Source: Pseudodesulfovibrio sp. | GTDB lineage: Bacteria > Desulfobacterota > Desulfovibrionia > Desulfovibrionales > Desulfovibrionaceae | Direction: 5' to 3' | Length of the DNA: 64,000 nucleotides | Assembly: GCA_016744135.1 (NCBI GenBank) | Contig: JADGEX010000001.1 | Location: forward strand, 310,001 to 374,000 | Part shown: positions 5,347-63,989 of the stretch, piece after piece | Position numbering within the stretch: position 1 is the stretch's first letter | Layout of the letters: the number at the start of each line of letters is the position of its first letter | Program-made: the position numbers and the translations under genes | The notes under the pieces: generated by a model | Told to the model about the DNA's origin: nothing | Databases searched by the model: none | What the model saw: the letters and a program-made list of their open reading frames with translations, nothing else

Positions 5347-6597
5347 ATGGACGATAGCTCTTCTGAACAGACCGATAACAAGACCGGGCTCGATGGATTC
5401 TTGCAAAGGATCTATCGGCCCGGTCCTCTCGTTTTTCTTTTCACCGTCGCTTTTCTGGGACTTATTTCCTTTGGGTACTTCCTTGTGACAGAAGAGACTC
5501 CTCCGCCAGCGGTTTTGGCGTCAGCTCCGACTTCTGAAGTGCAACCAACAATCATTCCGGTCAAGCGGACTCCTGTGGTCAAGGAATACGAAGAAGAGAC
5601 CGCCGAGATGGAAGATTTCGTCAAGCAGACAGATTTCGCTATCCTTGAAACATTGCGAGAACTTGCCGTTGCCATGAGTGACCTTGATTTGGTGGACGTG
5701 GTGCTTCGTCAGCATGAAGGGCACAGCTATCATTATCAAGTGTTGCAACTCCCTAGAGTAAAAGACAGAAATAAATTTCTTGTAACCTTGAGAAGACATA
5801 TTTTTGAGCGTTTGCCTGACGCAATTCTTCTCGATAACGGGGATAACGAAGCCATTATTCGAATTAATGACCTCCCCACGCACCGGTTATTGTTGGAAGC
5901 GAAACCTGAAATTATTGTTCGCCCAGAAGCAAAAAAACCAAAATTGGCTATTGTTATAGATGACATTGGCGAGAATCACGCCGTCCTTAAAGGATTGCTT
6001 GACCTTGATCTGCCTTTGACTTTTGCGGTCTGGCCTCATGCAAGCCATACAGAGGATTCCATTTCTCTCATCGGCTTAAAAAATCGTGATTTAATTATCC
6101 ATTTCCCCATGGAACCTAAAGGATATCCCAAAGTTAAACCGGGTGAAGACGCCCTTTTTGTTAATATGACCACAGTTCAAATTCAGCAGCAGATTGTCGA
6201 AAATTTGAGCAGAGTTCCGCAGGCTATAGGGGTCAACAATCACATGGGATCTCGTTTCACGGCTTTCTCTCCCGGAATGACGACCGCCTTGACAGAGTTC
6301 AAGCGACGTGGGTTATTCTTTTTGGACAGCATGACATCTGCCCAAAGCGTTGGTCGGCAGACCGCTCAAGACGTTGGAATACCCTTCTACAAACGTGACA
6401 TCTTTTTGGATAACGTCAAGGACGTAAACGCCATTGTTCATCAACTCAAAAAAACTGAACGAGTAGCAGCCCGTCAAGGAACTGCCATTGCTATCGGACA
6501 TCCATATAAAGAGACCTTGGCAGCTCTGAAACAATGGCAAGCAGATAGAAAACCATCGGTTCAAATCATTTCTCTTTCACAAATTTCACCGAAATAA
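5347..6597 (+). CDS. Divergent polysaccharide deacetylase family protein (YibQ-like)
   Basis: A cytoplasmic tail and a single membrane anchor (about residues 28-48) precede a periplasmic region. From about residue 200 comes a divergent NodB-like deacetylase domain with KLAIVIDDIG, LTFAVWPH, IHFPMEPKGYP and IGVNNHMGSRFTA. This family (COG2861) often neighbours envC. Catalysis and substrate are not established for the family. Start and stop are clear, and the gene follows ctpA closely, so it is probably the last gene of that transcript. Confidence 0.87.
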   Translation: MDDSSSEQTDNKTGLDGFLQRIYRPGPLVFLFTVAFLGLISFGYFLVTEETPPPAVLASAPTSEVQPTIIPVKRTPVVKEYEEETAEMEDFVKQTDFAILETLRELAVAMSDLDLVDVVLRQHEGHSYHYQVLQLPRVKDRNKFLVTLRRHIFERLPDAILLDNGDNEAIIRINDLPTHRLLLEAKPEIIVRPEAKKPKLAIVIDDIGENHAVLKGLLDLDLPLTFAVWPHASHTEDSISLIGLKNRDLIIHFPMEPKGYPKVKPGEDALFVNMTTVQIQQQIVENLSRVPQAIGVNNHMGSRFTAFSPGMTTALTEFKRRGLFFLDSMTSAQSVGRQTAQDVGIPFYKRDIFLDNVKDVNAIVHQLKKTERVAARQGTAIAIGHPYKETLAALKQWQADRKPSVQIISLSQISPK

Positions 6598-6967
6598 GTC
6601 ACTTTCCTAGCCTGCCTGCTTTTTTCAACAGGGAATATCTGTACGATGTTCCCTGTTAGCTTAATAGAAATATGTATTTTGTTTGATTGCTTTGAATCCG
6701 CTGTTTTTATTGTTATATGTAGTGATGTTGATATTGATATTTGAAAAAATCATGTAATTCTCTAGAAAATTTCGACTGAATTTACGCCTTTTTATTGCCT
6801 AATTTGGGACTCCCGTGTAAAAATGTATTTAAGCAATTATCCGTTTTGGTCGATAAGAGAGCATTGAACCCGGCCCGCTTTTTGCTAACGTATTAAAGGT
6901 ATTCAAATTTCCGGCATAGCCGGTGAAAAACGGGCCGAATATTCGGCAAAAATGAGGCTTTCTCCCA
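6598..6967 (+). other. Gene-free stretch before fliM
   Basis: About 370 AT-rich bases without a credible gene. An inverted repeat (AACAGGGAA at 6627-6635 with TTCCCTGTT at 6649-6657) lacks a T-run and may be a weak terminator of the preceding operon. A possible sigma-54 promoter lies at 6871-6886. A second small dyad (CCGGCATAGCCGG) is near 6911-6923 in the presumed fliM leader. Confidence 0.5.
6871..6886 (+). promoter_or_regulatory. Possible sigma-54 promoter of fliM
   Basis: CGGCCCG, four bases, then TTGCT: the invariant GG (-24) and GC (-12) are spaced exactly as in the TGGCACG-N4-TTGCW consensus. The predicted start point is near 6896, about 70 bases before fliM. Sigma-54 control of flagellar genes is common, and rpoN is present in this window. 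This is prediction by eye only. Confidence 0.45.
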
Positions 6968-7945
6968 ATGAGCAAAATCCTCGAACAAGATGAAGTTGAT
7001 GCCCTGCTCCGAGGTTTATCCGGTGGGGACGTCGAAACGGAAACCGAGATACCGGAGGACGATACCGGTGTTGTCGCATTTGATCTGGCCAATCAGGACA
7101 GAATCATTCGCGGTCGCATGCCCGTCCTTGAGATTGTCAACGATCGTTTCGCACGTCTGTGCACCAATGCGCTGGCTAATACCATGCGTAAACGTGTGGA
7201 CATCAATCCCATCTCTATCGATATGTCCAAGTTCGGTGACTTCATGCGTTCTTTGCCGGTCCCGACGTCCATTTCCATTTTTAAGATGGACCCACTTCGA
7301 GGAAATGCCCTGCTAGTGGTCGATTCCAGGCTTGTTTTTGCCTTAGTCGAAAACTTTTTTGGTGGTGCCGGTAGCCAACCTAAGGTTGAGGGCCGTGATT
7401 TTACGCCCATCGAACAGGCTATTGTCGAGCGTGTGGTGAAGATTGCTTTGGCAAATATGGAAGAATCGTGGAAGCCCGTGCATGAAGTCCATGTGGAAAT
7501 GGTTCGTACCGAGGTTAATCCACAGTTCGCAGCCATTGTCCCCCCATCAGATGTTGTTATTGTCGTCACGTTTGAAGTTGAGTTGGAAAACGCCATTGGT
7601 TCTCTCATTGTCTGTCTTCCTTATGCGACAATGGAACCTATCCGTTCGAAGTTGCATGCATCTTTCCAATCTGAGCGTCTTGAAGTCGATCACGTTTGGA
7701 TTAATCGTTTCAAAGAACGTCTCATGGAAACACCTGTCGAAATGGTCATTCGCATGGGACGGACTTCCATTAGTGGTCGTCAGTTGCTCTATCTTCAGGA
7801 AGGCGACATTATTCTTCTCGATACAGATGAAGATGAACTGTTGGAGGCTGAAGTCGAAGGAATTCGTAAGTTTCACGGCTTGCCCGGTCGCGTAAAGGGT
7901 AACAAGTCTTTTCAGGTGATCAAGGAAGAAGAAATCCGTTTCTAA
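6968..7945 (+). CDS. fliM: Flagellar motor switch protein FliM
   Basis: C-ring protein that binds CheY-P and sets rotation direction. The N-terminus MSKILEQDEVDALLRG is the conserved CheY-binding motif. The CheC-like middle domain contains the GGxG-type segment FFGGAGSQPKVEGRDFTPIE, and the C-terminal SpoA domain ends PGRVKGNKSFQVI. The length of 325 residues is normal. A GAGG site at 6954-6957 precedes the ATG. It is alone: no fliN or other flagellar gene lies beside it in this window. Confidence 0.95.
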   Translation: MSKILEQDEVDALLRGLSGGDVETETEIPEDDTGVVAFDLANQDRIIRGRMPVLEIVNDRFARLCTNALANTMRKRVDINPISIDMSKFGDFMRSLPVPTSISIFKMDPLRGNALLVVDSRLVFALVENFFGGAGSQPKVEGRDFTPIEQAIVERVVKIALANMEESWKPVHEVHVEMVRTEVNPQFAAIVPPSDVVIVVTFEVELENAIGSLIVCLPYATMEPIRSKLHASFQSERLEVDHVWINRFKERLMETPVEMVIRMGRTSISGRQLLYLQEGDIILLDTDEDELLEAEVEGIRKFHGLPGRVKGNKSFQVIKEEEIRF

Positions 7946-7968
7946 TTTTCTACAAGAAGCTATTTATC

Positions 7969-7994
7969 GAGCCGCTCCATGCGGCTCTTTTTTT
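7969..7994 (+). terminator. Intrinsic terminator after fliM
   Basis: Seven-bp stem GAGCCGC / GCGGCTC with loop TCCAT, followed directly by seven T. Confidence 0.9.
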
Positions 7995-8015
7995 ATGATC
8001 AAAGACCGAAACACC

Positions 8016-8045
8016 TTGACTTTGCACCTTTCAATTGGTCAAAAT
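8016..8045 (+). promoter_or_regulatory. Possible sigma-70 promoter of the ABC importer
   Basis: TTGACT, 18 bases, CAAAAT, about 30 bases before the binding-protein start at 8077. Only a consensus match by eye. Confidence 0.35.
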
Positions 8046-8076
8046 TTGTCCTAATTTGAGAGAAGGAGCCTGTTTC

Positions 8077-9027
8077 ATGAAAAAGATTTTGTTGATTTTG
8101 GCTGTGAGTCTATTGCTTGCCGCCACCGCATTCGCTGGTAAATCCTATGTTGTTTCCGTGACCCAGATTGTTGAACATCCGGCCTTGGATGCCATGCGTA
8201 ATGGTGTTGCTGATCGACTTAAAGAGAAAGGCATTGATGTCACATTCAATGTTCATATCGCCCAAGGTAATTCCGCCACCAACGTTCAAATCATTGGACA
8301 AATTATGGGCGAACAGCCTGATGTCGTCTTGGCCATCGCCACTCCCGGCGCACAGGCAGCTGCACAAAAAATTCATGATCGTCCTATAGTTTTTACTGGT
8401 GTAACTGATCCGGTAGATGCAGGACTGGTCAAAGATCTGCAAAACAGTGATGGCAAAAATGTGACAGGCATGTCCGATTTTAGCCCCATGGACAAACATG
8501 TGGCTTTAATTCAGGAAATTGTGCCTTCCACAAAGACTATCGGTGTCATTTATAACGCTGGCGAGCCTAATTCTGTGGCTCTCGTCAGTGCGCTCCGTGA
8601 AAATGTAGCCAAGGCTGGATTGAGCCTTGAAGAGGCCACTATTGCAAATTCAAGCGGCGTGTATCAGGCTGCCAAAAGCCTGATCGGGCGCTGTGATGTA
8701 GTGTATATCCCGACTGACAATACGGCTATTTCTGCTTTGGAATCAGCCATCAAAGTCTGTACACAAAGTCAAGTTCCCCTGATTGTTGGAGATGTCGATT
8801 CCGTTGCTCGTGGTGCAATTGCTGCCGTGGCTGTCGACTATTATAAAATGGGATTGCAAACCGGTGATATGGTTGCCAAAATACTTGTGGACGGTGTGAA
8901 GCCTTCCGACATGCCAATCGAGTTCCTCAATGATCTCAAATTGCATGTGAACAAAAAGGCCGCAATTTCCATGGGCGTTACCCTGCCAGAATCTACTATA
9001 AGCCGTGCAGCCAAGATTATTGAGTAG
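8077..9027 (+). CDS. ABC transporter substrate-binding protein (PF04392 type)
   Basis: Periplasmic binding protein of the ABC_sub_bind family. The signal peptide is cut after about residue 20 (TAFA|GKS) with no lipobox cysteine. Family segments are VTQIVEHPALDAMRNG at the mature N-terminus, VLAIATPGAQAA, PIVFTGVTDPV, and VYIPTDNTA. The ATG at 8077 has AAGGAG at 8063-8068. Permease and ATPase genes follow on the same strand. Ligands proposed for related systems include tryptophan, other amino acids or nucleoside-like compounds; nothing in the sequence settles this. Confidence 0.9.
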   Translation: MKKILLILAVSLLLAATAFAGKSYVVSVTQIVEHPALDAMRNGVADRLKEKGIDVTFNVHIAQGNSATNVQIIGQIMGEQPDVVLAIATPGAQAAAQKIHDRPIVFTGVTDPVDAGLVKDLQNSDGKNVTGMSDFSPMDKHVALIQEIVPSTKTIGVIYNAGEPNSVALVSALRENVAKAGLSLEEATIANSSGVYQAAKSLIGRCDVVYIPTDNTAISALESAIKVCTQSQVPLIVGDVDSVARGAIAAVAVDYYKMGLQTGDMVAKILVDGVKPSDMPIEFLNDLKLHVNKKAAISMGVTLPESTISRAAKIIE

Positions 9028-9060
9028 CCTCGCATTTGCTTATTCTGTCTAATAAGTATA

Positions 9061-9090
9061 AAAGGCGCGTTGCTTTAACGCGCCTTTTTC
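9061..9090 (+). terminator. Hairpin/terminator between binding protein and permease
   Basis: Eleven-bp stem AAAGGCGCGTT / AACGCGCCTTT with a 5-base loop and trailing T residues. Since permease and ATPase follow, it may attenuate their expression so that the binding protein is made in excess. Confidence 0.8.
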
Positions 9091-9146
9091 ATTGTTTCGT
9101 CGAGGAAGTGTTTTCGCTTGATTCTCGACTAATTTAGGAAGCAAAT

Positions 9147-10046
9147 ATGACCAGTTATGCTTTTTTCGGTGCTTTGGAACAGGGATTCGCCTATGGCCTT
9201 ATGGTCATTGGTGTCTATCTGACATTCCGAGTACTGGACTTTCCGGATCTCACGGTTGACGGTAGTCTTCCTCTTGGAGCCGCAGTTTCAGCCGTGGCTG
9301 TCACCTCAGGGTATTCCCCGTTTTTTGCTATTATGATGGCAGCCGGAGCGGGATTTCTTGCAGGAATGGTGACCGGTATACTCAATACAAAATTCAAAAT
9401 TCTGCATCTGCTCGCCTCCATTCTAACCATGATCGCTCTTTATTCTGTTAATTTACGAATTATGGGTCGACCCAATATGGCCCTACTTGGACAAGACACA
9501 GTGGTCGATTGGTTCATGGAGTTAACCGGATTACTTCCTTATTATTCTACCCCATTACTATTCTTCATCATTTGTTTGGTCGTCGTAATCATACTCATTT
9601 GGTTTTTGCATACAGAACAAGGCCTCACTTTTCTGGCTACTGGCAACAATATGCAGATGATTACGAGCCAGGGTGTCAACACTGATACCGTAATTATCTT
9701 CGGTGTAGGCCTGTCCAACGCACTGGTCGCCACGTCCGGCGCATTAGTCGCTCAAAACCAGGGGGCAGCTGACGTTAATATGGGGGTGGGGACCATCGTT
9801 GCCGGTTTGGCTTCGGTCATACTTGGTGAAACCATTTTCGGCGACAAGACCATTGGACGTGCTATCATTGCCGCCCTGCTCGGGTCCGCTTTGTATCGTA
9901 TAGCGATTGGTTTAGCCCTTGGTCTCAAACTTGGTTCTTTTTCCATTACTCCGAGCGATTTGAATTTAATCACAGCCCTTCTTGTTGTCGTGGCATTGAT
10001 CGCACCCAGAATGAAACGTAAAATTCTCGCCGGGAGGTCCAAATGA
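9147..10046 (+). CDS. ABC transporter permease (BPD_transp_2 family)
   Basis: Integral membrane permease with about eight hydrophobic segments. The N-terminus GLMVIGVYLTFRVLDFPDLTVDG is typical of the COG4120 permeases that partner PF04392 binding proteins. It contains the loop NTKFKILHLLASILTMIALYSVNLRIMG and GLSNALVATSGALVAQNQGAADV. Its TGA overlaps the ATG of the ATPase gene (ATGA), implying coupled translation. Confidence 0.9.
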   Translation: MTSYAFFGALEQGFAYGLMVIGVYLTFRVLDFPDLTVDGSLPLGAAVSAVAVTSGYSPFFAIMMAAGAGFLAGMVTGILNTKFKILHLLASILTMIALYSVNLRIMGRPNMALLGQDTVVDWFMELTGLLPYYSTPLLFFIICLVVVIILIWFLHTEQGLTFLATGNNMQMITSQGVNTDTVIIFGVGLSNALVATSGALVAQNQGAADVNMGVGTIVAGLASVILGETIFGDKTIGRAIIAALLGSALYRIAIGLALGLKLGSFSITPSDLNLITALLVVVALIAPRMKRKILAGRSK

Positions 10047-52997: not shown

Positions 52998-53041
52998 AAA
53001 GCCCTGTCCTTCGGCAATTAAACCGAAGCACAGGGCTTTCC
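52998..53041. terminator. Bidirectional terminator between helicase and Hdr operon
   Basis: Stem AAAGCCCTGT and CTTCGG pairing with CCGAAG and ACAGGGCTTT, one internal mismatch, 8-base loop. It lies between two converging transcription units. Confidence 0.75.
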
Positions 53042-53061: not shown

Positions 53062-54357
53062 CTACAACCCTACATTCTTCAAATCATCTCCGAGATATTC
53101 ACGTTCGTTTTCGCCAAGCATACCGAGCGAAAGACAAATGAGTGTCCAGAGGTGAACCACCGGGAAGTGTGCGCCGGAGTATTCACTGAGATCATGAATC
53201 TGTGAATGGCAGTTATGACATGGCGCGATGCAATAGTCCGCCTTGGTGCGAAGAATCTGATCGAGTTTGATCTGACCATACTTGCGCCGTTCGTCTGCAA
53301 AACCTGACTGGAGGAATCCGCCGCCGCCACCGCAACAGTAGTTGTTGGATTTATTCGGCCACATATCGATGAAATTTTCTTCACCGACTACGGATTTGAC
53401 CACAAAACGAAGGTCCTCGGCCACCGGATCACCCAGTGACTTCCGTACAAGCTGACACGGGTCCTGAACCGTGAAGGTCACGCCCAAGTCCTTGTTCCAA
53501 TCGGAGTTGACTGGCAGCTTGCCCTCACGAATCCACTGGGCATACAGCCGAATAATGCTTTCCATCTCGAAGTCGTGTTCGACATTAAACTTTTGCAATC
53601 CGGCCCGGACTGCATAAAATTCGTGTCCTCACTCCGTGTTGAGCCAAACCTTGCACCCCAGCTCTTCTACGGCTCCGGCCTTGTTGCGCACCACATTTTC
53701 CCATGCGTCATCATCGGCCAGAAACATGCAGTAATTTTCTGCAGCCCATCCTTTGGTGCTATATGTCCAGTCCGCGCCGACCAGATTAAGTATCTTCCAG
53801 AGCGGAACCATTTCGTCCGGCTCGGTCACTGGTTCGCGTGAATTCTGATTCAGGAAATAATACGCGCCCTTTCTGTCGACAGAGACTTGAATATTCTCCT
53901 GACCAGGCTGCATTTCACGCACTTCCTCGGCCACATCCTCAACCACGAATTTGAAGTCTTCGCTGGATGCACCCATTGCGCTGTTGCCGGGGGTGTTCAA
54001 GGCCTGTTCGCAGGAACCAAGTATTCCTTTGGGACGATCTTCCCTCGGCCACGATTGACGGCATTGATAAATTAGTTGTGGGATATCCACTTCCATGGGA
54101 CATGCATGAACACACCGTCGACACATGGTGCACAACCACACCCAGGATGTGGACCGGATAGTTTCTTCCTGTCCCATAAGCGCCAAACGCACGAATTTGC
54201 GAGGGTCCATGTCTTCCATACCCGTGGCAGGGCATCCTGCAGAACAGGCTCCACACGTGAGACACATATTCAAATTACCGCCCTCGGGCAGCAGTTCCCG
54301 GACCTTGTCCACCAGTTCCGATTGCTTCGGCTCAAGAAGAAGCGCTGCTTCACCCAT
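53062..54357 (-). CDS. CCG-domain Fe-S protein, selenoprotein (in-frame UGA as Sec243)
   Basis: Heterodisulfide-reductase-related protein. ATG 54357 (AAGGAG upstream) runs to TGA at 53631-53629; the same frame then continues GHEFYAVRAGLQ to the stop at 53062, giving 431 residues. The N-terminal part has two [4Fe-4S] motifs, CLTCGACSAGCP and CTMCRRCVHACP (HdrC-like). The C-terminal part is HdrB/HdrD-like, with CCG elements DPCQLV, NYCCGGGGG and CIAPCHNC. The UGA replaces the Cys expected in LNTE-C-GHE. A SECIS-like hairpin lies 14 bases past the UGA. Last gene of the operon; probably a thiol/disulfide or electron-transfer partner of the Hdr complex. Partner inferred. Confidence 0.85.
53594..53614 (-). 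promoter_or_regulatory. Candidate bacterial SECIS element
   Basis: On the minus strand TGCAGTCCG pairs with CGGATTGCA (nine bp, one G-U), apical loop GGC. The loop starts 23 bases after the UGA. The same GGC loop occurs in the SECIS candidate at 33591-33611. Confidence 0.75.
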
Positions 54358-54465: not shown

Positions 54466-55368
54466 CTAGGCCAAGGCCTCCGTCTGAACAGCCGCGCCTG
54501 TCTGGTCGTACATAAGGCCGCAACGCAAATCGAAGTGACGGTTGACGCTCATGGTCGGACACGGTGCGTTCAATGCCACCTGAGTGACCGTCGAACCAAG
54601 GAAAGCCTTTTCCGGGTCACGTTCCTTGGAATGGTGAGCCATGATGATCAGGTCTGCATCGGCCTGATTCCCCATGCGCAGAATTTCCATAGAAGGCTTG
54701 CCGCGACAGGCCTCGAAACCGCATTCACCGATACCATCAAGACGAGGACCATATTCATCTTCCAGTCGTCCGATGACATCAGAGCGACTGTTTCCATTTT
54801 CCACGACATGCATGATCTTGAGATTGGCCTTGTACTGACGGGCCATCTGGCCGCCGTAACTTACGGCGCATTCAGCTTGATCAGAGAAATCGGTTGCCAC
54901 AAGGATATTACTATACAGCGGTTCCTTACAAACAACGTCCTTGTGAACAATCATGACCGGACAGCGGGCCTTCTGACTCACGCGTTCAAGCGTACTGCCT
55001 GTCATGCCCCACATCTTGGAACGAGTTTCCTCGTATTCCTTGGTGTGCGGTCCCATGACGATAAGGTCGGTGTTCTTCTTTCGTGCCAGACGCAGGATCT
55101 CGTTGTGCGGGATACCCGGTACGACAATAATCTGTGATTCCTGGATTCCCTCAAGCATTTCCGCATACGTTTCAGAGATCTGTTCCTTGAGCCGTGAAGT
55201 TTCACCCGAAGGTTCCAGAGTTTCGATAGAACCCCAGCCCTGAGCCATGCCCGCCACATGAACGAGGTAAAGCTTTGACTCGAACTTACGAGCGAATTCC
55301 ATTGCTGCCTGAACCGCGCAGTTGTCGATTCCGGTAGGAGTGACTCCTACGATGATGTCCTTAAACAT
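54466..55368 (-). CDS. Tandem universal stress protein
   Basis: Two UspA domains (about residues 1-142 and 150-285). The first has VGVTPTGIDNCAVQ, TDLIVMGPHTK and the ATP-type GMTGSTLERVSQKARCPVMIVH; the second has ILVATDFSDQAECAV, ADLIIMAHHSK and FLGSTVTQVALNAPCP. A nucleotide-binding role for the first domain is likely. It overlaps the end of hdrB by eight bases, so it belongs to the Hdr operon, where it could sense nucleotide or energy state. Confidence 0.92.
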   Translation of the reverse strand: MFKDIIVGVTPTGIDNCAVQAAMEFARKFESKLYLVHVAGMAQGWGSIETLEPSGETSRLKEQISETYAEMLEGIQESQIIVVPGIPHNEILRLARKKNTDLIVMGPHTKEYEETRSKMWGMTGSTLERVSQKARCPVMIVHKDVVCKEPLYSNILVATDFSDQAECAVSYGGQMARQYKANLKIMHVVENGNSRSDVIGRLEDEYGPRLDGIGECGFEACRGKPSMEILRMGNQADADLIIMAHHSKERDPEKAFLGSTVTQVALNAPCPTMSVNRHFDLRCGLMYDQTGAAVQTEALA

Positions 55369-56314
55369 GATTTGCCCCCTTGCTGAGGTTATCCGCCTTT
55401 GCTTCCGCCATATCGTCGCCGCTTTCGACCTGGTTCGGCTGGCTCCAGACCTTGTTGGCGATATCCCTCCTGACCCCAGCCGATATGGTCAGGTTTTTCT
55501 CGAATTGAATGGCCCCATCCTCCAGCCCGAAGGCTTCGCCCATCAATTGTGTCAGATAGAGAATGGGGATAGGTTTGGCTCCAAGTTTCTGCGCCTGCGA
55601 CTGATATGCCTCAAGATTCATCTGACATAATGGACAGACCGTGGCGATGGCATCCGCGCCCTCTGCATCAGCGAGTATTGCCGCCACCGATTGAAGTGCC
55701 ACATCTCTATGCCCCACCATGAGCGAAGCACCACAACATTTGTTGCCGTGATTCCACTCATGCATTTCTGCACCCAATGCTGTAAGAACACGATGCATGG
55801 ATGTAGGGTTCTTGGGATCATCAAACACCGGGTATGGTCGTAAGATCTGACACCCGTAATATGGGGCGATCTTCATGCCCTCAAGGTTGTTTGTCACCTT
55901 CTGTTCAATAATTTTTGCCCCGACATCATTGATGAGAACATCGAGAATATGTCGCACCTCCACCTTGCCGGAATAGGTCAAACCGGACGCAGCCAGCACT
56001 TCATTCACCTTGCCATGCAGACTCCTGTCTCCAATTACTTCCTTGTTCACCTTGAGCAGGTTGAGATAGCAGGCGGAACACGGCGCGATCACATCAATGC
56101 CGTCGAGTTCTTTTTCAGTGAGGGCAAGATTACGTGCCGGAAGCGCATAGTTCATAAGCTTGCTCACCGGCTCAGCCGCACTCGCGCCGCAACAGGTCCA
56201 GTCTGGAATTTCAATCAATTCGGCACCAAGATACTCCATGACTGCACGCGTAGAGATATCAAACTCCGTCGCACTTTCAGTCAAAGAACAACCTGGGTAG
56301 TATGCGTATTTCAT
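55361..56314 (-). CDS. hdrB: Heterodisulfide reductase subunit B-like protein
   Basis: 317 residues with two CCG domains: YPGCSLTESA, DWTCCGASAAEP, IAPCSACYLNLL, then YYGCQILRPY, NKCCGASLMVG and TVCPLCQMNLEAY. These cysteine sets hold the noncubane Fe-S clusters that reduce disulfides in HdrB. The ATG overlaps the hdrC stop (ATGA), and GGAGGG lies upstream. The natural disulfide in sulfate reducers is not settled (DsrC is a proposed partner). Confidence 0.94.
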   Translation of the reverse strand: MKYAYYPGCSLTESATEFDISTRAVMEYLGAELIEIPDWTCCGASAAEPVSKLMNYALPARNLALTEKELDGIDVIAPCSACYLNLLKVNKEVIGDRSLHGKVNEVLAASGLTYSGKVEVRHILDVLINDVGAKIIEQKVTNNLEGMKIAPYYGCQILRPYPVFDDPKNPTSMHRVLTALGAEMHEWNHGNKCCGASLMVGHRDVALQSVAAILADAEGADAIATVCPLCQMNLEAYQSQAQKLGAKPIPILYLTQLMGEAFGLEDGAIQFEKNLTISAGVRRDIANKVWSQPNQVESGDDMAEAKADNLSKGANHV

Positions 56315-56877
56315 GACAATCCCTCCATCTCTCGCGCCTTGGCGAACATAGGCTTCAGCACTCCGCCCTGACCGCCACCCGGCATATGTACCTTGCCCTT
56401 GGCCATCATCTTCATACCCAGCGGTACAAACTTGAGCGGTAGCGTCGGGTTATCCATGCGTTTGAAAAAATAATTGCTCATCATGCCCATTTCCTGCACT
56501 CGACCATGTGACTCGACATTTTCCATGAACGCTCTATAGAACGCACTGTTCTTACGTCCTTTGCCACTGAGCATGGCCAGTCTCTTCAGAGAAGCCATGA
56601 CCGAAGTGAGTTTGAGACCTCGTGGACATCGCAGTGTGCAGGTGTAACAAGATGAACACATCCAGAAGGTCTGGCTTTCAAGGATCTCGTCGAGCATGCC
56701 GAACTGGATCATCCGCCACATGGCCCGTGGAGTGATATCCATTGCGAACCCGTTGGGACAGGACGCCGTACAAGTACCGCACTGCATACAGGCCCCGACT
56801 TCTTCCTTTAATTGGGCGAGCACGAACTCGATTTCATCTCCGGCCGGGCTCCATGTTTTTCTTACTGCTTCGCTCAT
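56311..56877 (-). CDS. hdrC: Heterodisulfide reductase subunit C-like protein
   Basis: Iron-sulfur electron carrier of 188 residues with two [4Fe-4S] motifs, CMQCGTCTASCP and CSSCYTCTLRCP. It links HdrA to HdrB. The ATG at 56877 is chosen for its GGAGG site; the frame is open further upstream. It lies 25 bases after the HdrA-like gene. Confidence 0.94.
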   Translation of the reverse strand: MSEAVRKTWSPAGDEIEFVLAQLKEEVGACMQCGTCTASCPNGFAMDITPRAMWRMIQFGMLDEILESQTFWMCSSCYTCTLRCPRGLKLTSVMASLKRLAMLSGKGRKNSAFYRAFMENVESHGRVQEMGMMSNYFFKRMDNPTLPLKFVPLGMKMMAKGKVHMPGGGQGGVLKPMFAKAREMEGLS

Positions 56878-56902
56878 GGCGTTATTCCTCCATATTTCCG
56901 AA

Positions 56903-59900
56903 TTACGCCGGTTCTTCGAGTGCCGCGTCAATGACAGACATCATCGGCCCATCGTGGAATCCCTTGAGGACCGTGGCACTGTTAGGACAAACTGCCGCAC
57001 AGGAGCCACACCCCTGACACAGGATTTCGTCCACCTGAATCTGACCGAGTTCCATATCCAACACACGAGCACCATACGGGCAGGCCGCGATACACGCCTG
57101 ACACAATGAACACAATGAGTGTCGGACAGAGGCCACCACAGTTTCACGGGCAATAGTTTCTGCATTGAGAATTCGTAATGCGCGTTGAGCAGCAGCCTTT
57201 GCAGAAGCAACAGATTCTCCCATTCGACGAGGAGCCAAACCGGTTCCGCACGCGTAAACACCCTGCTTGAGGAAATCTACGGGCCGCCACTTGAAATCCG
57301 CTTCTTGATAAAAGCCGTCTTCGTTAATCTCCACGCCAAAGACTTCCTGGATATCATCCATGTCATTGGGTTCCATGCCACTCGAAAGTGACAGAATATC
57401 TGGCCTGAGGATTATGTTTTCCCTAAGAATGGGGTCGTAGGCCGTAATGACCGGCTTACCTTCCTCAAACTTCACCTGAGGGGGGGCGTCCTGTTCATAT
57501 CGAATGAAGATGGCTCCGGCCTTCCGTGCCTGCGTGTAGTAGGTCTCAAGGAAACCAGGCATCATAATATCACGATAGAACACGTATATCGGCAGATCAG
57601 GATTGCGCTCCTTGAGAGCGAGCACGTTCTTGACCATTTCCGGACAACACACCTTGCTGCAATAGGTACGGTCCTCACCGGGCTTGCGCCAACACTGAAT
57701 CATGGCAACCGAAGAAAGTATGCCTGCGTCAAGCTGACCTGTGGCAAGCTGTTCTTCCAATGTGAAATGAGTCATCACCGACTTATGCACACACAGGCCG
57801 CTTTCATAGACCTTGGCCTCGTGTGCACCGGTAGCAAGAATGGAGACACCATGCTCAAGAGGGAATACTCCTTCCGGACTGGCAATGGCGGAACGGAACC
57901 GTCCTGCACTGCCTCGAGACAGCACGACACGTGAATCCTTGAGCACCCTGATATTCGGATGCTTTTCCACCTGTGCGATGAGTTCTTCCATGTACTTGTG
58001 TGGATCGGAACCATCGAGTTGTGTATGCAACCGCATAGCCATGCCGCCAAGTTCTTCTTCGGATTCCACCAAACAGACTCCATAGCCTTGATCCGCAATA
58101 GCCATAGCCGCTGTCATACCCGCCAATCCACCACCGACAACCAAGGCCGACCGTTCTACGTCAACCATATTAGGTGGCGGTGTTGGGTCGACTCCTTGCA
58201 ACCGTGCTACAGCCGTGGACAAAGATGCGTAAATCTCCTTCTCCGCTGTTCGTGCATCTGTTTCCGGGCCAAAGGTCGGTGTATAGATATCCACCACATC
58301 CATAAGTGCGGGATTCAGACCAATGGTCTTGCCCAATTCCTTGAGACGGGGAATGTAGGCGTAAGGCATACACGCACCGATGATAATACGGTTCGGCTTG
58401 AACTCTATGGCCGCCTGTTCAATATCGCCCCACCCTTCTACCGTGCAGGCACTTCCTACACTTACAACCTTGCAAACCGAGTGAACATTGGCCATACGCA
58501 GACTCAACGCTTCGATATCAACGGATTGCTCCAAAGTAGGACAGGATGCACAGACTGCCACCAATGTACGAGGTGGTTCACGCGAAACGTCTGGGAAATC
58601 GGGTTCAGGTTCGTCCTCAATACCCGCCAGCACGTCATATGCCTTGATGATACGGGACGCGGCTTGCGCTGCTGCGCCTGCATGAATCACGGATTCGGAG
58701 ATGTCCTTGGGTTCACCAAACGCCCCGGCTGCGAATATACCGACAGCGCTTGTGCGTTCCGGTGAATACGGCTGCGTATCTGCGAAACCCCACTGATTGA
58801 GATCAATACCGATTGTCTGCGCAAATGTGTCCGAATTCTTTGGCGGACGTGCTCCCACGGCCAGAACAACCATGTCATAGATTTCGGTGACCATTGTTCC
58901 GTCTTCGGCAAAGTATTCGAGTTTGATGTCTTGCCCGTCATCCGTCGGCAGGAGCGAATGAGGACGGCTGCGCACAAAACGAACGCCCTGTTCTTTTTCA
59001 GCATTGATACGATATCGTTGATATCCCTTCCCCGCCGTACGCATATCCATGTAAAAAATGGAAGTCTCCACTTCACCATTGGTCACCTTTTTAGCGAGCA
59101 ACGATTCCTTGATGGAAAACATGCAGCATATCCCAGAACAGAAATCCGCATTCCTTTGCACATCGCGCGAGCCAACGCACTGAATCCATGCAATCTTTTT
59201 GATCGGCTTGTCATCACCGGGACGCAACAGCTTGCCGCCTGTGGGACCAGTCCCGCTCAAAAGGCGTTCGAATTCGACCGCTGTAAGTACGCCGGGGTGT
59301 TCATAATTCCAGATTTCCGATGAAACCTCAGGATCTGTTTTTGGATCGTAGCACTCAAATCCACCGGCCAGAACGATGGCTCCGACTTCCAGTTCCTCGA
59401 CAGTGTCTGAAAGAATACGCACGAACAACTTATCGAGCCACGGCACAAACTTCTTTGCCGTCAACGGCTTGGTCAGATATTCGCGTGCACCTTGCAAAAC
59501 AAGTTCGGTAGCGGTTTCATCCTGACTTTCATCTGCCAGAATAACCACCGGCATATCCGGGTGAAGTTCCTGACAACGTGTCAAGACACGTTCGGCATCC
59601 ATGTCATTAATATTTAATCCAAGTAGGACAAGCCTGAATTGATCGGTTTCGGCGAGCTGATCCACTGCCTCACGCCCACTTGCGGTAAAATGAAGTGGGA
59701 AATTCTGTTCATCAAGACTTCCTTGCATCATTTCCTGTACCGTTTCATCTCGATCTACCACGAGGATATGAAAGTCCTTGCGCTCTTCGAACTTGAAATC
59801 AATGGCCCCGGTAGGACATACTTCATGACATTTCCAACAACGCAAACAGTTGTCCAAATCCAGTACATACTGATTGGGAATGGCATGCGGAACCGGCAGA

Positions 59901-60337
59901 TAAATAGCTGCCCGTTGCGTCAATCCAGCGTTGAATTCACTGTCCACTCGAACCGGGCACACCTCGGAACACTTGCCGCAACTAACACATTTGGTCGGGT
60001 CCACCAAAGGCGATGTTCGGTTTAACGAGACAAAGAACTTGCCCGGTTCACCTTCTACTTCCGCCACTTCGGTAGAGAGCATAATATCAATATTATCGTG
60101 AAACAGCCCCTTGCGCAGGCAATACTGGCTGGATGAATCCCGTGACATAAGCGGCAGCATCTTACACATGCCGCAATGATCGGACGGAAATTGGTGGTCA
60201 AGTTGACTCAAAATTCCACCGTGGTTCGGACGGCGGTCGATAAGAGCGACCTTGTGACCAGTAACGGCCAGGTCGAGAGCGGCGCGTATACCACCGATTC
60301 CTGCGCCTACCACCATTGCTCCGTATTGCTTCCTCAT
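56903..60337 (-). CDS. HdrA-like flavoprotein with inserted receiver domain
   Basis: 1144 residues from ATG 60337 (GGAGG upstream). FAD motif VVGAGIGGIRAALDL (about 8-30); two 4Fe-4S motifs CVSCGKCSEVCP (117-127) and CLRCWKCHEVCP (164-174); a response-regulator receiver fold (about 189-306); HdrA core with CVGSRDVQRNADFCSGICC; a second FAD motif VVGGGLAGMTAAMAI (about 770); terminal 4Fe-4S motifs CSLCQACIAACP and CQGCGSCAAVCP. The receiver keeps acidic Asp195/Asp197 and Lys290, but Gly240 replaces the phosphoacceptor Asp and Ala268 the Thr, so phosphorylation is unlikely. It looks like two HdrA-like units fused; probable electron-bifurcating or relay subunit. Confidence 0.88.
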   Translation of the reverse strand: MRKQYGAMVVGAGIGGIRAALDLAVTGHKVALIDRRPNHGGILSQLDHQFPSDHCGMCKMLPLMSRDSSSQYCLRKGLFHDNIDIMLSTEVAEVEGEPGKFFVSLNRTSPLVDPTKCVSCGKCSEVCPVRVDSEFNAGLTQRAAIYLPVPHAIPNQYVLDLDNCLRCWKCHEVCPTGAIDFKFEERKDFHILVVDRDETVQEMMQGSLDEQNFPLHFTASGREAVDQLAETDQFRLVLLGLNINDMDAERVLTRCQELHPDMPVVILADESQDETATELVLQGAREYLTKPLTAKKFVPWLDKLFVRILSDTVEELEVGAIVLAGGFECYDPKTDPEVSSEIWNYEHPGVLTAVEFERLLSGTGPTGGKLLRPGDDKPIKKIAWIQCVGSRDVQRNADFCSGICCMFSIKESLLAKKVTNGEVETSIFYMDMRTAGKGYQRYRINAEKEQGVRFVRSRPHSLLPTDDGQDIKLEYFAEDGTMVTEIYDMVVLAVGARPPKNSDTFAQTIGIDLNQWGFADTQPYSPERTSAVGIFAAGAFGEPKDISESVIHAGAAAQAASRIIKAYDVLAGIEDEPEPDFPDVSREPPRTLVAVCASCPTLEQSVDIEALSLRMANVHSVCKVVSVGSACTVEGWGDIEQAAIEFKPNRIIIGACMPYAYIPRLKELGKTIGLNPALMDVVDIYTPTFGPETDARTAEKEIYASLSTAVARLQGVDPTPPPNMVDVERSALVVGGGLAGMTAAMAIADQGYGVCLVESEEELGGMAMRLHTQLDGSDPHKYMEELIAQVEKHPNIRVLKDSRVVLSRGSAGRFRSAIASPEGVFPLEHGVSILATGAHEAKVYESGLCVHKSVMTHFTLEEQLATGQLDAGILSSVAMIQCWRKPGEDRTYCSKVCCPEMVKNVLALKERNPDLPIYVFYRDIMMPGFLETYYTQARKAGAIFIRYEQDAPPQVKFEEGKPVITAYDPILRENIILRPDILSLSSGMEPNDMDDIQEVFGVEINEDGFYQEADFKWRPVDFLKQGVYACGTGLAPRRMGESVASAKAAAQRALRILNAETIARETVVASVRHSLCSLCQACIAACPYGARVLDMELGQIQVDEILCQGCGSCAAVCPNSATVLKGFHDGPMMSVIDAALEEPA

Positions 60338-60365: not shown

Positions 60366-61511
60366 TTAGGCCATGTGCGACACTGTGTCCTGGAACTCGT
60401 CTTCCTTGAAAACCGAAAGCGGCGGCGACTCTTCCAGACTTCTGCCCGGCTCGTAGTCAAAGCTCTTCTGTGTCCGAGCTGCGACTGTACGGAACAACTC
60501 CATTACGGGGATGCCGTTAGGACAAGCATTAGAACACTGTCCACATCCCACACAGGCCATGGACATATGCGCCATACGGGTCAGATGATAGAAGATAGTA
60601 TCCGTGGGCAGCTTGAGACTTCCCTTACGCTTGGCCCAGCCCATGTACTGCCACGGCTTATGTTCGAACACGTCAGTATTAAAAACGCATTCCTTGCAGT
60701 AACAAACCGGACAAGCCACTCGGCAATTATAACAATTCACGCAACTCGACAGATATTCTGACAAATCGGTCAATGTACCAGTGGCGGCCTTGGTCGCCTC
60801 AATCATGGCATCACGATTTTTAGTGCGCACCTTAATAAGCGATTCAAGCACTGCGTCTCGTCCAGTGGTTTCCATATTGGGCAACCCAAGGCTATTGAGC
60901 AGAGCCTCGCCTCGAGCACTATCTGCCATGACCGGAATAGCATCGTGCAGATCTGCACCGGCGATCCCAATAACAATATCCGCATTGGTCGGAGCCGGGA
61001 ATTCACAGGACTTGCAGGCCGGAGCTATATCCACACCGTTCACAGCTGTCTCATTTGCTCCACCGTGCTGTCCTTGAAATGCAAGTGTTGCCTCAAATGA
61101 CTCCCGGTCACCGACGAACGTCGTATAGCCAGTGTTGTCATAGGCCCCCATACAATCCATCCCCACGATAATTACATCATCAAGGCTGCCCTGATTGAGC
61201 TTCACTAATTCCACGAATGCCCTAATTTCACAGGGGCGCATAACAACAGCTATACGTTCGCCGGACTGACCACGCGTCAATCGCGACAGAAGTTTTGCAC
61301 TGTTCAGGGGAAATGCCGGAGCCAAAGGGTCCGCACCTGAAAACTGATCAGGGTCAGTCACCAACGTCGGCATGGGGAGTCCCTTGTCAAACAGATGAAC
61401 CGGCACCACGACTCCGCCTAATGACTCGTCTTCCAACAAGCCACGCAAAAAGCCTTGTATCGCCACAACCGGGTTGTTATTTTCAACCTGTATTTTCACA
61501 GTGGTCGCCAT
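60366..61511 (-). CDS. FrhB/FdhB-type iron-sulfur flavoprotein subunit
   Basis: 381 residues, coenzyme F420 hydrogenase/dehydrogenase beta-subunit family (COG1035-like), with an N-terminal FrhB domain (VVVPVHLFDKG, VVMRPCEIRAFVEL, VIIVGMDCMGAY) and C-terminal cysteine motifs CVNCYNCRVACPVCYC and CVGCGQCSNACP. In methanogens such subunits pass electrons from F420 or formate to HdrA. Here it probably feeds or drains the Hdr complex; the actual electron donor (NADH, ferredoxin, formate) is not shown by sequence. It lies between mvhD and the HdrA-like gene. Confidence 0.9.
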   Translation of the reverse strand: MATTVKIQVENNNPVVAIQGFLRGLLEDESLGGVVVPVHLFDKGLPMPTLVTDPDQFSGADPLAPAFPLNSAKLLSRLTRGQSGERIAVVMRPCEIRAFVELVKLNQGSLDDVIIVGMDCMGAYDNTGYTTFVGDRESFEATLAFQGQHGGANETAVNGVDIAPACKSCEFPAPTNADIVIGIAGADLHDAIPVMADSARGEALLNSLGLPNMETTGRDAVLESLIKVRTKNRDAMIEATKAATGTLTDLSEYLSSCVNCYNCRVACPVCYCKECVFNTDVFEHKPWQYMGWAKRKGSLKLPTDTIFYHLTRMAHMSMACVGCGQCSNACPNGIPVMELFRTVAARTQKSFDYEPGRSLEESPPLSVFKEDEFQDTVSHMA

Positions 61512-61529: not shown

Positions 61530-61955
61530 CTAAACCACGGCCATGGAACGCGCTTCCATGGGACCGAGTTCTCTGATTTCGTTAATGAAAGAATTTACCG
61601 TTTCCGCAAATTCATTCCCTTCACTCGCTCCTACCCAAGTCAGCTTGACGCGCTCCCTTTCAACTCCAAACTGAGGCAGGATTTCGTTGAGGAGCTTAAC
61701 CCGACGTCGGGCCTTGTAATTGCCATTGATATAATGGCAATCACCGGGATGACACCCACTGACAAGCACTCCGTCAGCTCCGGAAAGGAGCGACTTTACG
61801 ATGTACTTGGGGTCCACCATGCCGGTACACATAACGCGTACCAATCGAAGATTCGGCTGTTGCACCATTCTCGACGTTCCAGCGAGATCTGCTGCGGTGT
61901 AGGTGCACCAGTTGCAGACAAAAGCTAGAATGGTCGGTTCGAATTCACTACTCAT
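61530..61955 (-). CDS. mvhD: Hydrogenase iron-sulfur subunit MvhD
   Basis: About 141 residues with the MvhD cysteines in VCNWCTYTAADLAG, VRVMCTGMVDP and VSGCHPGDCHYINGN. A [2Fe-2S] protein that delivers electrons to HdrA. ATG at 61955 with GGAGG (61961-61965). No MvhAG hydrogenase genes are adjacent. Confidence 0.95.
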   Translation of the reverse strand: MSSEFEPTILAFVCNWCTYTAADLAGTSRMVQQPNLRLVRVMCTGMVDPKYIVKSLLSGADGVLVSGCHPGDCHYINGNYKARRRVKLLNEILPQFGVERERVKLTWVGASEGNEFAETVNSFINEIRELGPMEARSMAVV

Positions 61956-61964
61956 CACTGCCTC

Positions 61965-63989
61965 CTAGGCTTCGCCTGGTTGATTGTCGCTGACGGCCTC
62001 AGCTATTTGTCCCTCGCCCTCAGGAGGCACAAGGTCAAACATCATGCCAAGCATTCCATCGATTTCATTGAATATCTGTGTCTGATTAAAGTGCTTGATC
62101 TGTGCGGCTCCACTCGGACAATAACCGGCACAGCTGCCACACCCCTTACACATGGCTTCATTGATGACCGAAATTTGTCGTCGTTCATCAAATTCAATGG
62201 CCGAGTATGGGCACAAGTCGATACACACCTTGCATCCGATGCACACGTCCGGGTCGATCCACGAGGTTGTAGGAGAGATGGAGACCGTTCCCTTAGCCGC
62301 AAGCGCAAGGGCCTGCGCTGCACCACCTGAAGCATGGGCAACGGCATCAGGGATATCCTTTGGTCCCTGACAGGCTCCGGCAAGGAACACACCATCTGTT
62401 GCGGTAGAAACCGGACCAAGCTTAGGATGCTCTTCGAGGAAGAAACCATCCTGCCCCTGGGCCACACCGAAGATACGTGCCACTTCATTTGTATCACTCC
62501 GTGCTTCCATGGCGGTACAAAGAATGACCATGTCCACAGGCACCCGCACGTTCATTCCGAGCAAGGTATCCTCGCCGACGATGACCAGCGAATCGTCTTC
62601 CTGCACAACTTCAGCCGGACGGCCTCGAATAAAGGTCACGCCTTCTTCCTGCACACGCTTGAAGAATTCTTCGTACCCTTTACCGAAACACCGCATATCA
62701 ATATAAAAATTATACACTTTGGTGTCATGTCCGACCTTGTCTTTAATAAGATGATCAAACTTGAGGGCGTACATGCAACAGGTGCGCGAACAGTATTCGT
62801 GATAATTCTTATCGCGGCTGCCCACACAATGAATTATACCGACACTCTTGGGCGCCTCGCCATTCTTCAAGACGATCTTTCCCTCGGTGGGACCAACTGC
62901 ATTGTTAAGCCGTTCGAATTGTAGCGCGGTGTACACATTGTCAAAACGACCAAAACCGTATTCGTACAACGGTGTCGGGTCCATGGCATCGTATCCGGTA
63001 GCCAGTACGATGGAACCAACATTAAAGACTTCATGAGTCTCCTTCATTGTATAATCAATGGCCCCGGTAGGACATATAGTCTGACAAATTCCGCACTTGT
63101 CCTTGGTGATCTTTTTGCAAATTGAACCATCAATGACCGGCGTACTCGGCACAGCCTGTGGCGAATTCCGATAAATGGCCTTTCGCATGGAAAGCCCTTC
63201 GTTAAACTCATTCAAGGCCTTGGTTGGACACTTTTCAAGACAGGCACCGCATCCAGTACAAATAGCTTCGTTGACGTAGCGAGGCTTGTGCTTCACGGTC
63301 ACGGTATAATTCCCGACAAAACCGGAAACGTCCTCGACTTCACTCCACGTCATAAGATTGATATTCGGTTCCTGCGACACTGCCACCATCTTGGGGGTAG
63401 AGATGCAGGCCGCACAATCCAACGTCGGAAACGTCTTGTCGAACTGGGCCATATGTCCACCAATTGATGGACTTTTTTCAACCAGATGAACCTTGTGTCC
63501 CGATTTTGCGATATCAAGAGAGGCCTGAATACCGGCGATGCCAGCACCAACGACCATGACATCCGGCAGGACATCCACTTCGCGAGAAAAGAGCTTCTCA
63601 TGATCACCCACTCTATCAACAGCCGCTTCGACAATGTGCTTGGCCTTGGCTGTCGCTTCATCCGGGTCAGCGGTTGTCCATGAACAATGTTCACGAATAC
63701 ATGCGTGTTGCATGAGATAAGGATTCAGCCCAGCTCTTGCACAAGCCTTCTGAAACGTCTTTTCATGCAGACGCGGCGAACAGGATGCCACGACGACCCG
63801 ATTGAGGCCGTATTCGCGAATATCCTTGATAACCATTTCTTGTCCCGGGTCCGAACACATGAATTGGTAGTCTCGAGAGACCGCCACGTCTTTGAGTTTT
63901 CCGGCATACCTGGCCACGTCTTCGCAATCGACCTTTCCCGCGATGTTCGAACCGCAGTGACAGATGTATACTCCGATTTTGTTGCCCAT
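61965..63989 (-). CDS. hdrA: Heterodisulfide reductase subunit A-like flavoprotein
   Basis: 674 residues. N-terminal domain VYICHCGSNIAGKVD and CSPRLHEKTF; FAD motif VVGAGIAGIQASLDIAKSG; cysteines LDCAACIST; [4Fe-4S] motifs CTGCGACLEKCP and CGICQTICP; HdrA signature CVGSRDKNYHEYCSRTCC; terminal pair CIGCKVCIDLCP and CKGCGSCAGYCP. HdrA holds the FAD that bifurcates electrons in Hdr complexes. GGAGGA precedes the ATG at 63989. It is the first operon gene inside the window; earlier genes may lie beyond the edge. Confidence 0.95.
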   Translation of the reverse strand: MGNKIGVYICHCGSNIAGKVDCEDVARYAGKLKDVAVSRDYQFMCSDPGQEMVIKDIREYGLNRVVVASCSPRLHEKTFQKACARAGLNPYLMQHACIREHCSWTTADPDEATAKAKHIVEAAVDRVGDHEKLFSREVDVLPDVMVVGAGIAGIQASLDIAKSGHKVHLVEKSPSIGGHMAQFDKTFPTLDCAACISTPKMVAVSQEPNINLMTWSEVEDVSGFVGNYTVTVKHKPRYVNEAICTGCGACLEKCPTKALNEFNEGLSMRKAIYRNSPQAVPSTPVIDGSICKKITKDKCGICQTICPTGAIDYTMKETHEVFNVGSIVLATGYDAMDPTPLYEYGFGRFDNVYTALQFERLNNAVGPTEGKIVLKNGEAPKSVGIIHCVGSRDKNYHEYCSRTCCMYALKFDHLIKDKVGHDTKVYNFYIDMRCFGKGYEEFFKRVQEEGVTFIRGRPAEVVQEDDSLVIVGEDTLLGMNVRVPVDMVILCTAMEARSDTNEVARIFGVAQGQDGFFLEEHPKLGPVSTATDGVFLAGACQGPKDIPDAVAHASGGAAQALALAAKGTVSISPTTSWIDPDVCIGCKVCIDLCPYSAIEFDERRQISVINEAMCKGCGSCAGYCPSGAAQIKHFNQTQIFNEIDGMLGMMFDLVPPEGEGQIAEAVSDNQPGEA

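Follow-up and report, generated by a model that had tools for sequence, protein, structure and literature searches.

Selenocysteine-containing Fe-S proteins related to heterodisulfide reductase have been described before in Deltaproteobacteria. A table row in PMC13188914 names an "Fe-S oxidoreductase-like protein, PTHR43551, UGH", accompanied by a passage on its operon, and an entry in PMC9312934 gives the Fe-S oxidoreductase-like protein as COG0247 GlpC. An Fe-S oxidoreductase (GlpC) also appears in a table of PMC1794560, where a glpC-hdrA-frhD-frhG-frhA operon is described, and PMC5029168 gives the values 31 and 47 for an Fe-S oxidoreductase in columns without heads. The accession listed for the published UGH family is WP_174406253.1. 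Furthermore, a passage of PMC2702500 reports HdrD4 of Desulfobacterium autotrophicum HRM2, a soluble HdrD composed of HdrC and HdrB domains, with selenocysteine.

The window analyzed here, a stretch of 64,000 nucleotides from Pseudodesulfovibrio sp., carries a gene of this kind on its minus strand. Under a plain table-11 reading the gene is split in two. The initial annotation had taken the two adjacent pieces (54357-53629 and 53598-53062) for one protein broken by a TGA at 53631-53629, and both the coordinates and the frame are exactly as it claimed: the pieces form a single frame of 431 aa with one in-frame TGA. Ten linking codons (GHEFYAVRAG, 53628-53599) bridge them gap-free, again as annotated. 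The computed mass is 48.6 kDa with Sec, and 27.1 kDa if translation stopped at the TGA. The closest named loci belong to Pseudodesulfovibrio and Desulfovibrionaceae MAGs with 87-90% identity. The features of the gene are:

53062..54357, minus strand: whole selenoprotein gene, 431 aa, with dicluster ferredoxin, degenerate N-terminal CCG and C-terminal CCG, HdrD/DsrK-like
53629..53631, minus strand: in-frame TGA, Sec243, UGH motif
53595..53613, minus strand: SECIS-like hairpin GCAGUCC-GGGCC-GGAUUGC, 15 nt after the TGA, from folding, stem pairing and codon constraint
54088..54273, minus strand: dicluster ferredoxin part, Cys32,35,38,42 and 76,79,82,86 (Pfam Fer4_8 at residues 29-90; the eight Cys in 139/139 rows)
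53728..53730, minus strand: Cys210 (134/134 ingroup rows, 0/5 outgroup rows)
53197..53472, minus strand: C-terminal CCG, Cys301...Cys341-Cys342...Cys380-x-x-Cys383 (PF02754 at residues 296-387; the five Cys in 139/139 rows)

An in-frame UGA within U-G-H, Cys homologues, a downstream SECIS-like hairpin and the Sec machinery were all found. Matched by description, the protein is like the published GlpC/UGH family in the UGH motif, in COG0247 and in its occurrence in Deltaproteobacteria, so far as the entries cited above describe that family. The gene is thus a member of a selenoprotein kind already in print. HdrD4 is likewise a selenocysteine-containing protein of the HdrD type, a likeness drawn from its description only.

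The TGA recurs in relatives. In the close sample of 60 genomes (the genome itself and 59 relatives), exactly one in-frame TGA was present in 38 of the 40 rows listed with at least 60% identity; the two exceptions were a Cys-type paralogue (G042:C162) and a fragment (query 9-151) which ends before the TGA site. Among 110 homologous loci (L001-L110) the TGA stood at residue 243 in every one, although this set includes the same species from two collections and holds 99 distinct local sequences. Of the rows with at least 50% identity in the 345-genome phylum sample, 44 had one TGA and 12 had none. All 16 non-TGA rows, three of which were genes fetched twice (13 distinct genes), had TGC or TGT at the Sec codon, and the alignment with Cys-containing homologues which the initial annotation had proposed as a check therefore came out in its favour. 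TGA also occupied the aligned position in more remote homologues from L092 and L073 (30-34% identity).

For the distribution of both forms a tree was drawn with a quick method for 139 rows, 123 with Sec and 16 with Cys, after identical and duplicate rows had been dropped. Residue 243 was Sec or Cys in 139/139 rows, and residue 245 was His in 137/139. The Sec/Cys label required seven changes, six of them forced by starred branches, and the 13 ingroup Cys rows fell in five separate places among the Sec rows. If the drawn root is right, this reads as repeated change from Sec to Cys on a tree whose sampling is uneven, since Cys rows were selected for having no stop in the search table. In locus L046 a Cys and a Sec copy adjoin each other (6594-7877 and 7961-9253, with 60% and 72% identity to the protein of the window). 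A Cys form with at least 60% identity occurred in 11 genomes of the phylum sample (345), 8 of which also have the Sec form. The presence of both forms in one genome suggests a selenium-free stand-in, as is mentioned in a passage of PMC2702500 for methanogen hydrogenases.

The 19-nt hairpin at 53613-53595 has a short, G-rich apical loop. Its folding gave a z of -3.7, and 2 of 200 shuffled sequences were equally stable. All seven stem pairs were formed in 104 of 119 distinct Sec sequences and six in the other 15, compared with only 2-5 in the 13 distinct Cys sequences. When the codons of 115 Sec sequences with more than 60% identity were shuffled synonymously (50 shuffles each), a mean of 4.2 pairs remained and 7/7 was reached in 2%; the stem pairing is therefore not explained by constraint on the protein. 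Moreover, when 406 windows of seven codons were ranked by codon constraint, the top 11 all began within residues 243-253. In the 99 distinct Sec sequences the next six pairs after the outermost were kept in 96-99; the two pairs adjoining the loop were kept in 92 and 89, respectively. The outermost pair was present in only 68 of the 99, which we count against our preferred explanation. At columns 21/33 double changes were observed (n=99: G-C 87, A-U 4, U-A 2, G-U 3, unpaired 3). A search of the whole window with Rfam at gathering thresholds returned a tRNA as its only match and no SECIS-type family. Taken from its sequence, the hairpin fits a bacterial SECIS that is specific to the Sec copies.

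The genome has matches above the curated cut-offs for SelA, SelB and SelD, and a tRNA-Sec with the anticodon TCA was found. The selD match (genome G000 C51:2324234-2325163, L128) itself carries one in-frame TGA, so that selenophosphate synthetase, too, is probably a selenoprotein in this genome. The co-occurrence of SelB was uninformative as a test, because selB is present in 307 of the 345 sampled genomes (36/38 genomes with the TGA form and 271/307 others, p 0.41). Two genomes with the TGA form, G092 (in 290 contigs) and G334 (in 740 contigs), had no SelB match at the cut-off used.

The conserved TGA, the Cys codons of the relatives, the stem-loop specific to Sec copies and the presence of SelA, SelB, SelD and tRNA-Sec are the grounds on which we read the locus as one iron-sulfur protein whose UGA is very probably translated as selenocysteine. 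Read instead as a real stop, the TGA would leave a ferredoxin-like protein of 27 kDa and, as a product of its own, a C-terminal CCG protein, for which a TTG start is available after the TGA (53598). The same TGA in 110/110 loci from many assemblies speaks against such a stop, as do the coding sequence that continues between the pieces, the Cys codons in relatives and the SECIS constraint, and we consider a true stop, a pseudogene or a sequencing error extremely improbable. All three were rejected on TGA conservation, the relatives' Cys codons and the SECIS constraint. All of these data agree with the initial annotation, which placed selenocysteine where a CCG-type Fe-S protein has the Cys of its Cys-Gly-His motif.

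The placing of this motif in a CCG domain needed refinement. The motif does lie in a CCG region, but this is a degenerate N-terminal CCG that scored no match with Pfam, and the C-terminal CCG alone was recognized. Two complete CCG motifs were not found: PF02754 matched at residues 296-387 only, and the N-terminal motif is without its other Cys. From its five Cys, the C-terminal CCG is predicted to bind a cluster of the noncubane [4Fe-4S] type. The C-terminal CCG motif is shared with methanogen HdrB and HdrD, while the window protein, having one intact CCG, would not hold a pair of noncubane clusters.

An AlphaFold2 model computed on alignment A1 (54 rows) had a mean pLDDT of 88. With Foldseek its best solved match was EtfD of M. 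smegmatis (PDB 9ojn, TMq 0.69), followed by HdrC and HdrB chains. The match to EtfD is remote, with 17% identical residues when the structures are aligned, and this also counts against our explanation. According to PMC13083937, EtfD binds a linear [3Fe-4S] cluster through Cys503, Cys538, Cys581 and Cys584, and the noncubane cluster next to it is completed by His583 instead of the bridging Cys of HdrB; the same paper calls this noncubane cluster non-catalytic. With a profile derived from A1, U243-G-H245-E246 fell on C581-P-H583-C584 of EtfD, with the numbering of 581-584 counted along the printed chain. EtfD, the closest solved fold, is therefore like the window protein in that the His of its CPHC aligns with His245, and unlike it, going by the same published description, in having clusters in both CCG domains and in being membrane-bound. 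In this profile alignment the ligand positions Cys503, Cys538 and Cys584 correspond to non-Cys residues, and residue 246 varies among E, V, A, I and M in the 121 Sec rows. A profile comparison with the HdrB of the operon aligned the C-terminal CCG alone and did not fix the N-terminal equivalences, which likewise counts against our explanation.

Since the other ligand positions are non-Cys and the five C-terminal Cys are invariant, the N-terminal CCG cluster has probably been lost and the C-terminal one kept, which would make Sec243 an orphan ligand beside the kept cluster. Sec243 thus probably marks the site where a lost iron-sulfur cluster used to bind. Of the two roles offered by the initial annotation, that of a cluster ligand looks less likely than attack on a disulfide, because three of the four N-terminal ligand positions are not Cys in the profile alignment to EtfD. 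Direct coordination by Sec243 of an Fe-S cluster, be it a modified N-terminal CCG cluster or the C-terminal noncubane one, would tune the potential of that cluster. Such a role is suggested by the aligned Cys581, a ligand of the linear [3Fe-4S] cluster of EtfD in the account of PMC13083937, and by Cys210, which with 134/134 ingroup rows and an aligned Cys in TmcB would leave two possible ligands. The non-Cys residues at the remaining EtfD positions, including the variable residue 246, and the absence of Cys210 from all five outgroup rows, two of which have the TGA, argue against it, and we regard it as rather unlikely.

The same column was compared in other CCG proteins of the genome. There is one match over the curated cut-off each for DsrK, HmcF and TmcB. 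The window protein itself reached 152.8 bits with HmcF, 139.8 bits with TmcB and 114.7 bits with DsrK, its best NCBIfam matches, and stayed far below the respective cut-offs of 750, 735 and 400. Aligned with it, DsrK, HmcF and TmcB of the same genome all have E-C-G-H at the Sec column and also share the C-terminal CCG-type motif; they are separate genes here, all with Cys. Sec therefore replaces a Cys that is common to the CCG proteins of sulfate respiration in this genome. A fourth paralogue has D-C-G-G at this column. In the DsrK of the genome (G000 C51:1836081-1837505, L174) the last Cys of the C-terminal CCG is lost (CAID vs CHNC).

At the Cys210 column a Cys was found in TmcB and none in DsrK, HmcF and the fourth paralogue. 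Cys210 is a possible partner of Sec243. In ferredoxin:thioredoxin reductase a [4Fe-4S] cluster reduces an adjacent disulfide, and by analogy a redox-active selenenylsulfide might link Sec243 and Cys210 next to the noncubane cluster. The secondary structure prediction puts the two residues at or close to helix starts within one domain, and Cys210 is invariant within the ingroup; the outgroup UGH proteins, DsrK and HmcF are without it, so that such a bond cannot be the general role of the residue at position 243. We judge the selenenylsulfide to be unlikely.

The dsrA gene was found in 35 of the 38 genomes with the TGA form and in 128 of the 307 others of the phylum sample; among the 38, G116, G153 and G369 were without a match. 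A sulfur substrate, for example DsrC, would fit this association, which is however confounded by phylogeny. Conversely, only 35 of the 163 genomes with dsrA carry the TGA form and 128 are without it, which makes the TGA form accessory.

The selenoprotein gene follows a set of hdr genes on the minus strand, in the order HdrA, MvhD/FlpD, FrhB/FdhB-C ferredoxin protein, receiver-bearing HdrA, HdrC, HdrB, tandem Usp and selenoprotein gene:

61965..63989, minus strand: HdrA, open frame without in-frame TGA
61530..61958, minus strand: MvhD/FlpD (PF02662), open frame without in-frame TGA
60366..61511, minus strand: FrhB/FdhB-C plus dicluster ferredoxin protein (PF04432, PF13183)
56903..60337, minus strand: HdrA with an inserted response-regulator receiver domain at residues 191-297 (PF00072, 52.5 bits)
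56311..56883, minus strand: HdrC, from family profile matches
55361..56314, minus strand: HdrB with two CCG domains (PF02754, two stretches)
54466..55368, minus strand: tandem universal stress protein (PF00582, two stretches)
52998..53039, minus strand: hairpin after the selenoprotein gene, possible terminator (z -6.6)

Within the operon an in-frame TGA occurs in the selenoprotein gene only. Between hdrB and the selenoprotein gene lie the Usp gene (54466-55368) and a gap of 108 nt. The scan for promoter patterns returned none in this gap, and its sole minus-strand promoter-like match lies inside the selenoprotein gene. The gene had initially been annotated as the last one of the Hdr operon. 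A strong hairpin 3' of it and a convergent next gene, which we take from its motifs to be a DEAD-box-type helicase, are in keeping with this; the hairpin at 53039-52998 was not among the matches listed by the terminator pattern scan. An operon end at this gene would be reasonable. In the receiver of the HdrA at 56903-60337 the position of the phospho-acceptor Asp is occupied by Gly (LVLLGLN), and the same position is Gly in 3 and Asp in 5 of 8 relatives. Judged by this residue, receiver phosphorylation may have been lost in Pseudodesulfovibrio.

The gene neighbourhood varies among the 80 named loci. By an automatic rule (Usp at most 400 nt upstream) a Usp gene adjoins the selenoprotein gene in 6 of them; L037 and L040 have a Usp upstream too, but farther off. 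Same-strand HdrA or MvhD homologues with no Usp close by were found in 37 loci, including L037, and another 37, including L040, fit neither rule within the DNA covered, with many loci ending at contig ends. A [NiFe]-hydrogenase-like frame was detected by motif search in the same locus in 7 of the 80, which recalls the glpC-hdrA-frhD-frhG-frhA operon as described in PMC1794560. In contrast to that description, with its frhD-frhG-frhA, no hydrogenase gene was present among the genes examined in the window operon, where hdrA and mvhD are linked. In several relatives, and not in the window, a second HdrD-like paralogue (Cys, DCGG, 28-30% identity) lies directly 3' of the Sec gene:

L031, 10422-11645: HdrD-like DCGG paralogue
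L032, 10418-11611: HdrD-like DCGG paralogue
L037, 10441-11601: HdrD-like DCGG paralogue

The alignments directly contain the conserved TGA, the SECIS-like element, the conserved site and the non-Cys residues at the other ligand positions. From these we infer insertion of Sec in the cell, the cluster type, a free selenol, its substrate and the direction, as follows. The SelB/tRNA-Sec system would decode the UGA as selenocysteine, and the hairpin at 53613-53595 would serve as its SECIS. The product would be a soluble HdrC-HdrB fusion of the HdrD/DsrK type which exchanges electrons with the HdrA/MvhD module of the operon, along a path that runs over two ferredoxin clusters and a single noncubane [4Fe-4S] cluster held by the C-terminal CCG. 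The N-terminal CCG would be without its cluster and retain a single ligand position, Sec243; two residues further on, His245 would probably be the His ligand of the cluster that remains.

Where selenocysteine takes the place of one invariant Cys, that residue is usually the one that carries out the chemistry, and a free selenol would be the simplest reading of Sec243. This selenol could make and break a bond with a thiol or disulfide substrate while the cluster gives or takes the electrons. The most plausible substrate in sulfate reducers would be a disulfide or trisulfide of a DsrC-type protein. As a whole, the explanation by a soluble HdrC-HdrB fusion, with a free catalytic Sec243 selenol beside a noncubane cluster and Sec inserted via SelB and SECIS, seems to us about evenly poised between right and wrong. 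A more far-reaching proposal is tentative and, in our view, somewhat doubtful: a hybrid active site of selenium and a noncubane cluster, in which the last ligand of a clusterless CCG would have become a catalytic Sec that faces the [4Fe-4S] cluster of its partner domain, with the His ligand two residues off. The corresponding Cys of DsrK, TmcB and HmcF would then be a hidden catalytic thiol acting on DsrC.

In the literature search, the matches listed (titles and abstract openings) contained nothing on the mechanism of UGH proteins. Among them there was also no operon with a receiver-bearing HdrA and a Usp, no orphan-ligand reading and no paper on the substrate of these Hdr-like proteins. The analysis adds an operon variant, comprising HdrA, MvhD, FrhB-like protein, receiver-bearing HdrA, HdrC, HdrB, Usp and the UGH gene, and a structural reading of Sec243.

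For sulfate-reducing bacteria the value of the protein lies in the position of its selenium. Sec marks a residue whose column is Cys in the DsrK, HmcF and TmcB of the same genome. The selenoprotein would therefore offer a labelled handle, accessible to 75Se and Se spectroscopy, on a central problem of sulfate respiration: the identity of the residue that, next to the noncubane cluster, acts on the sulfur substrate.
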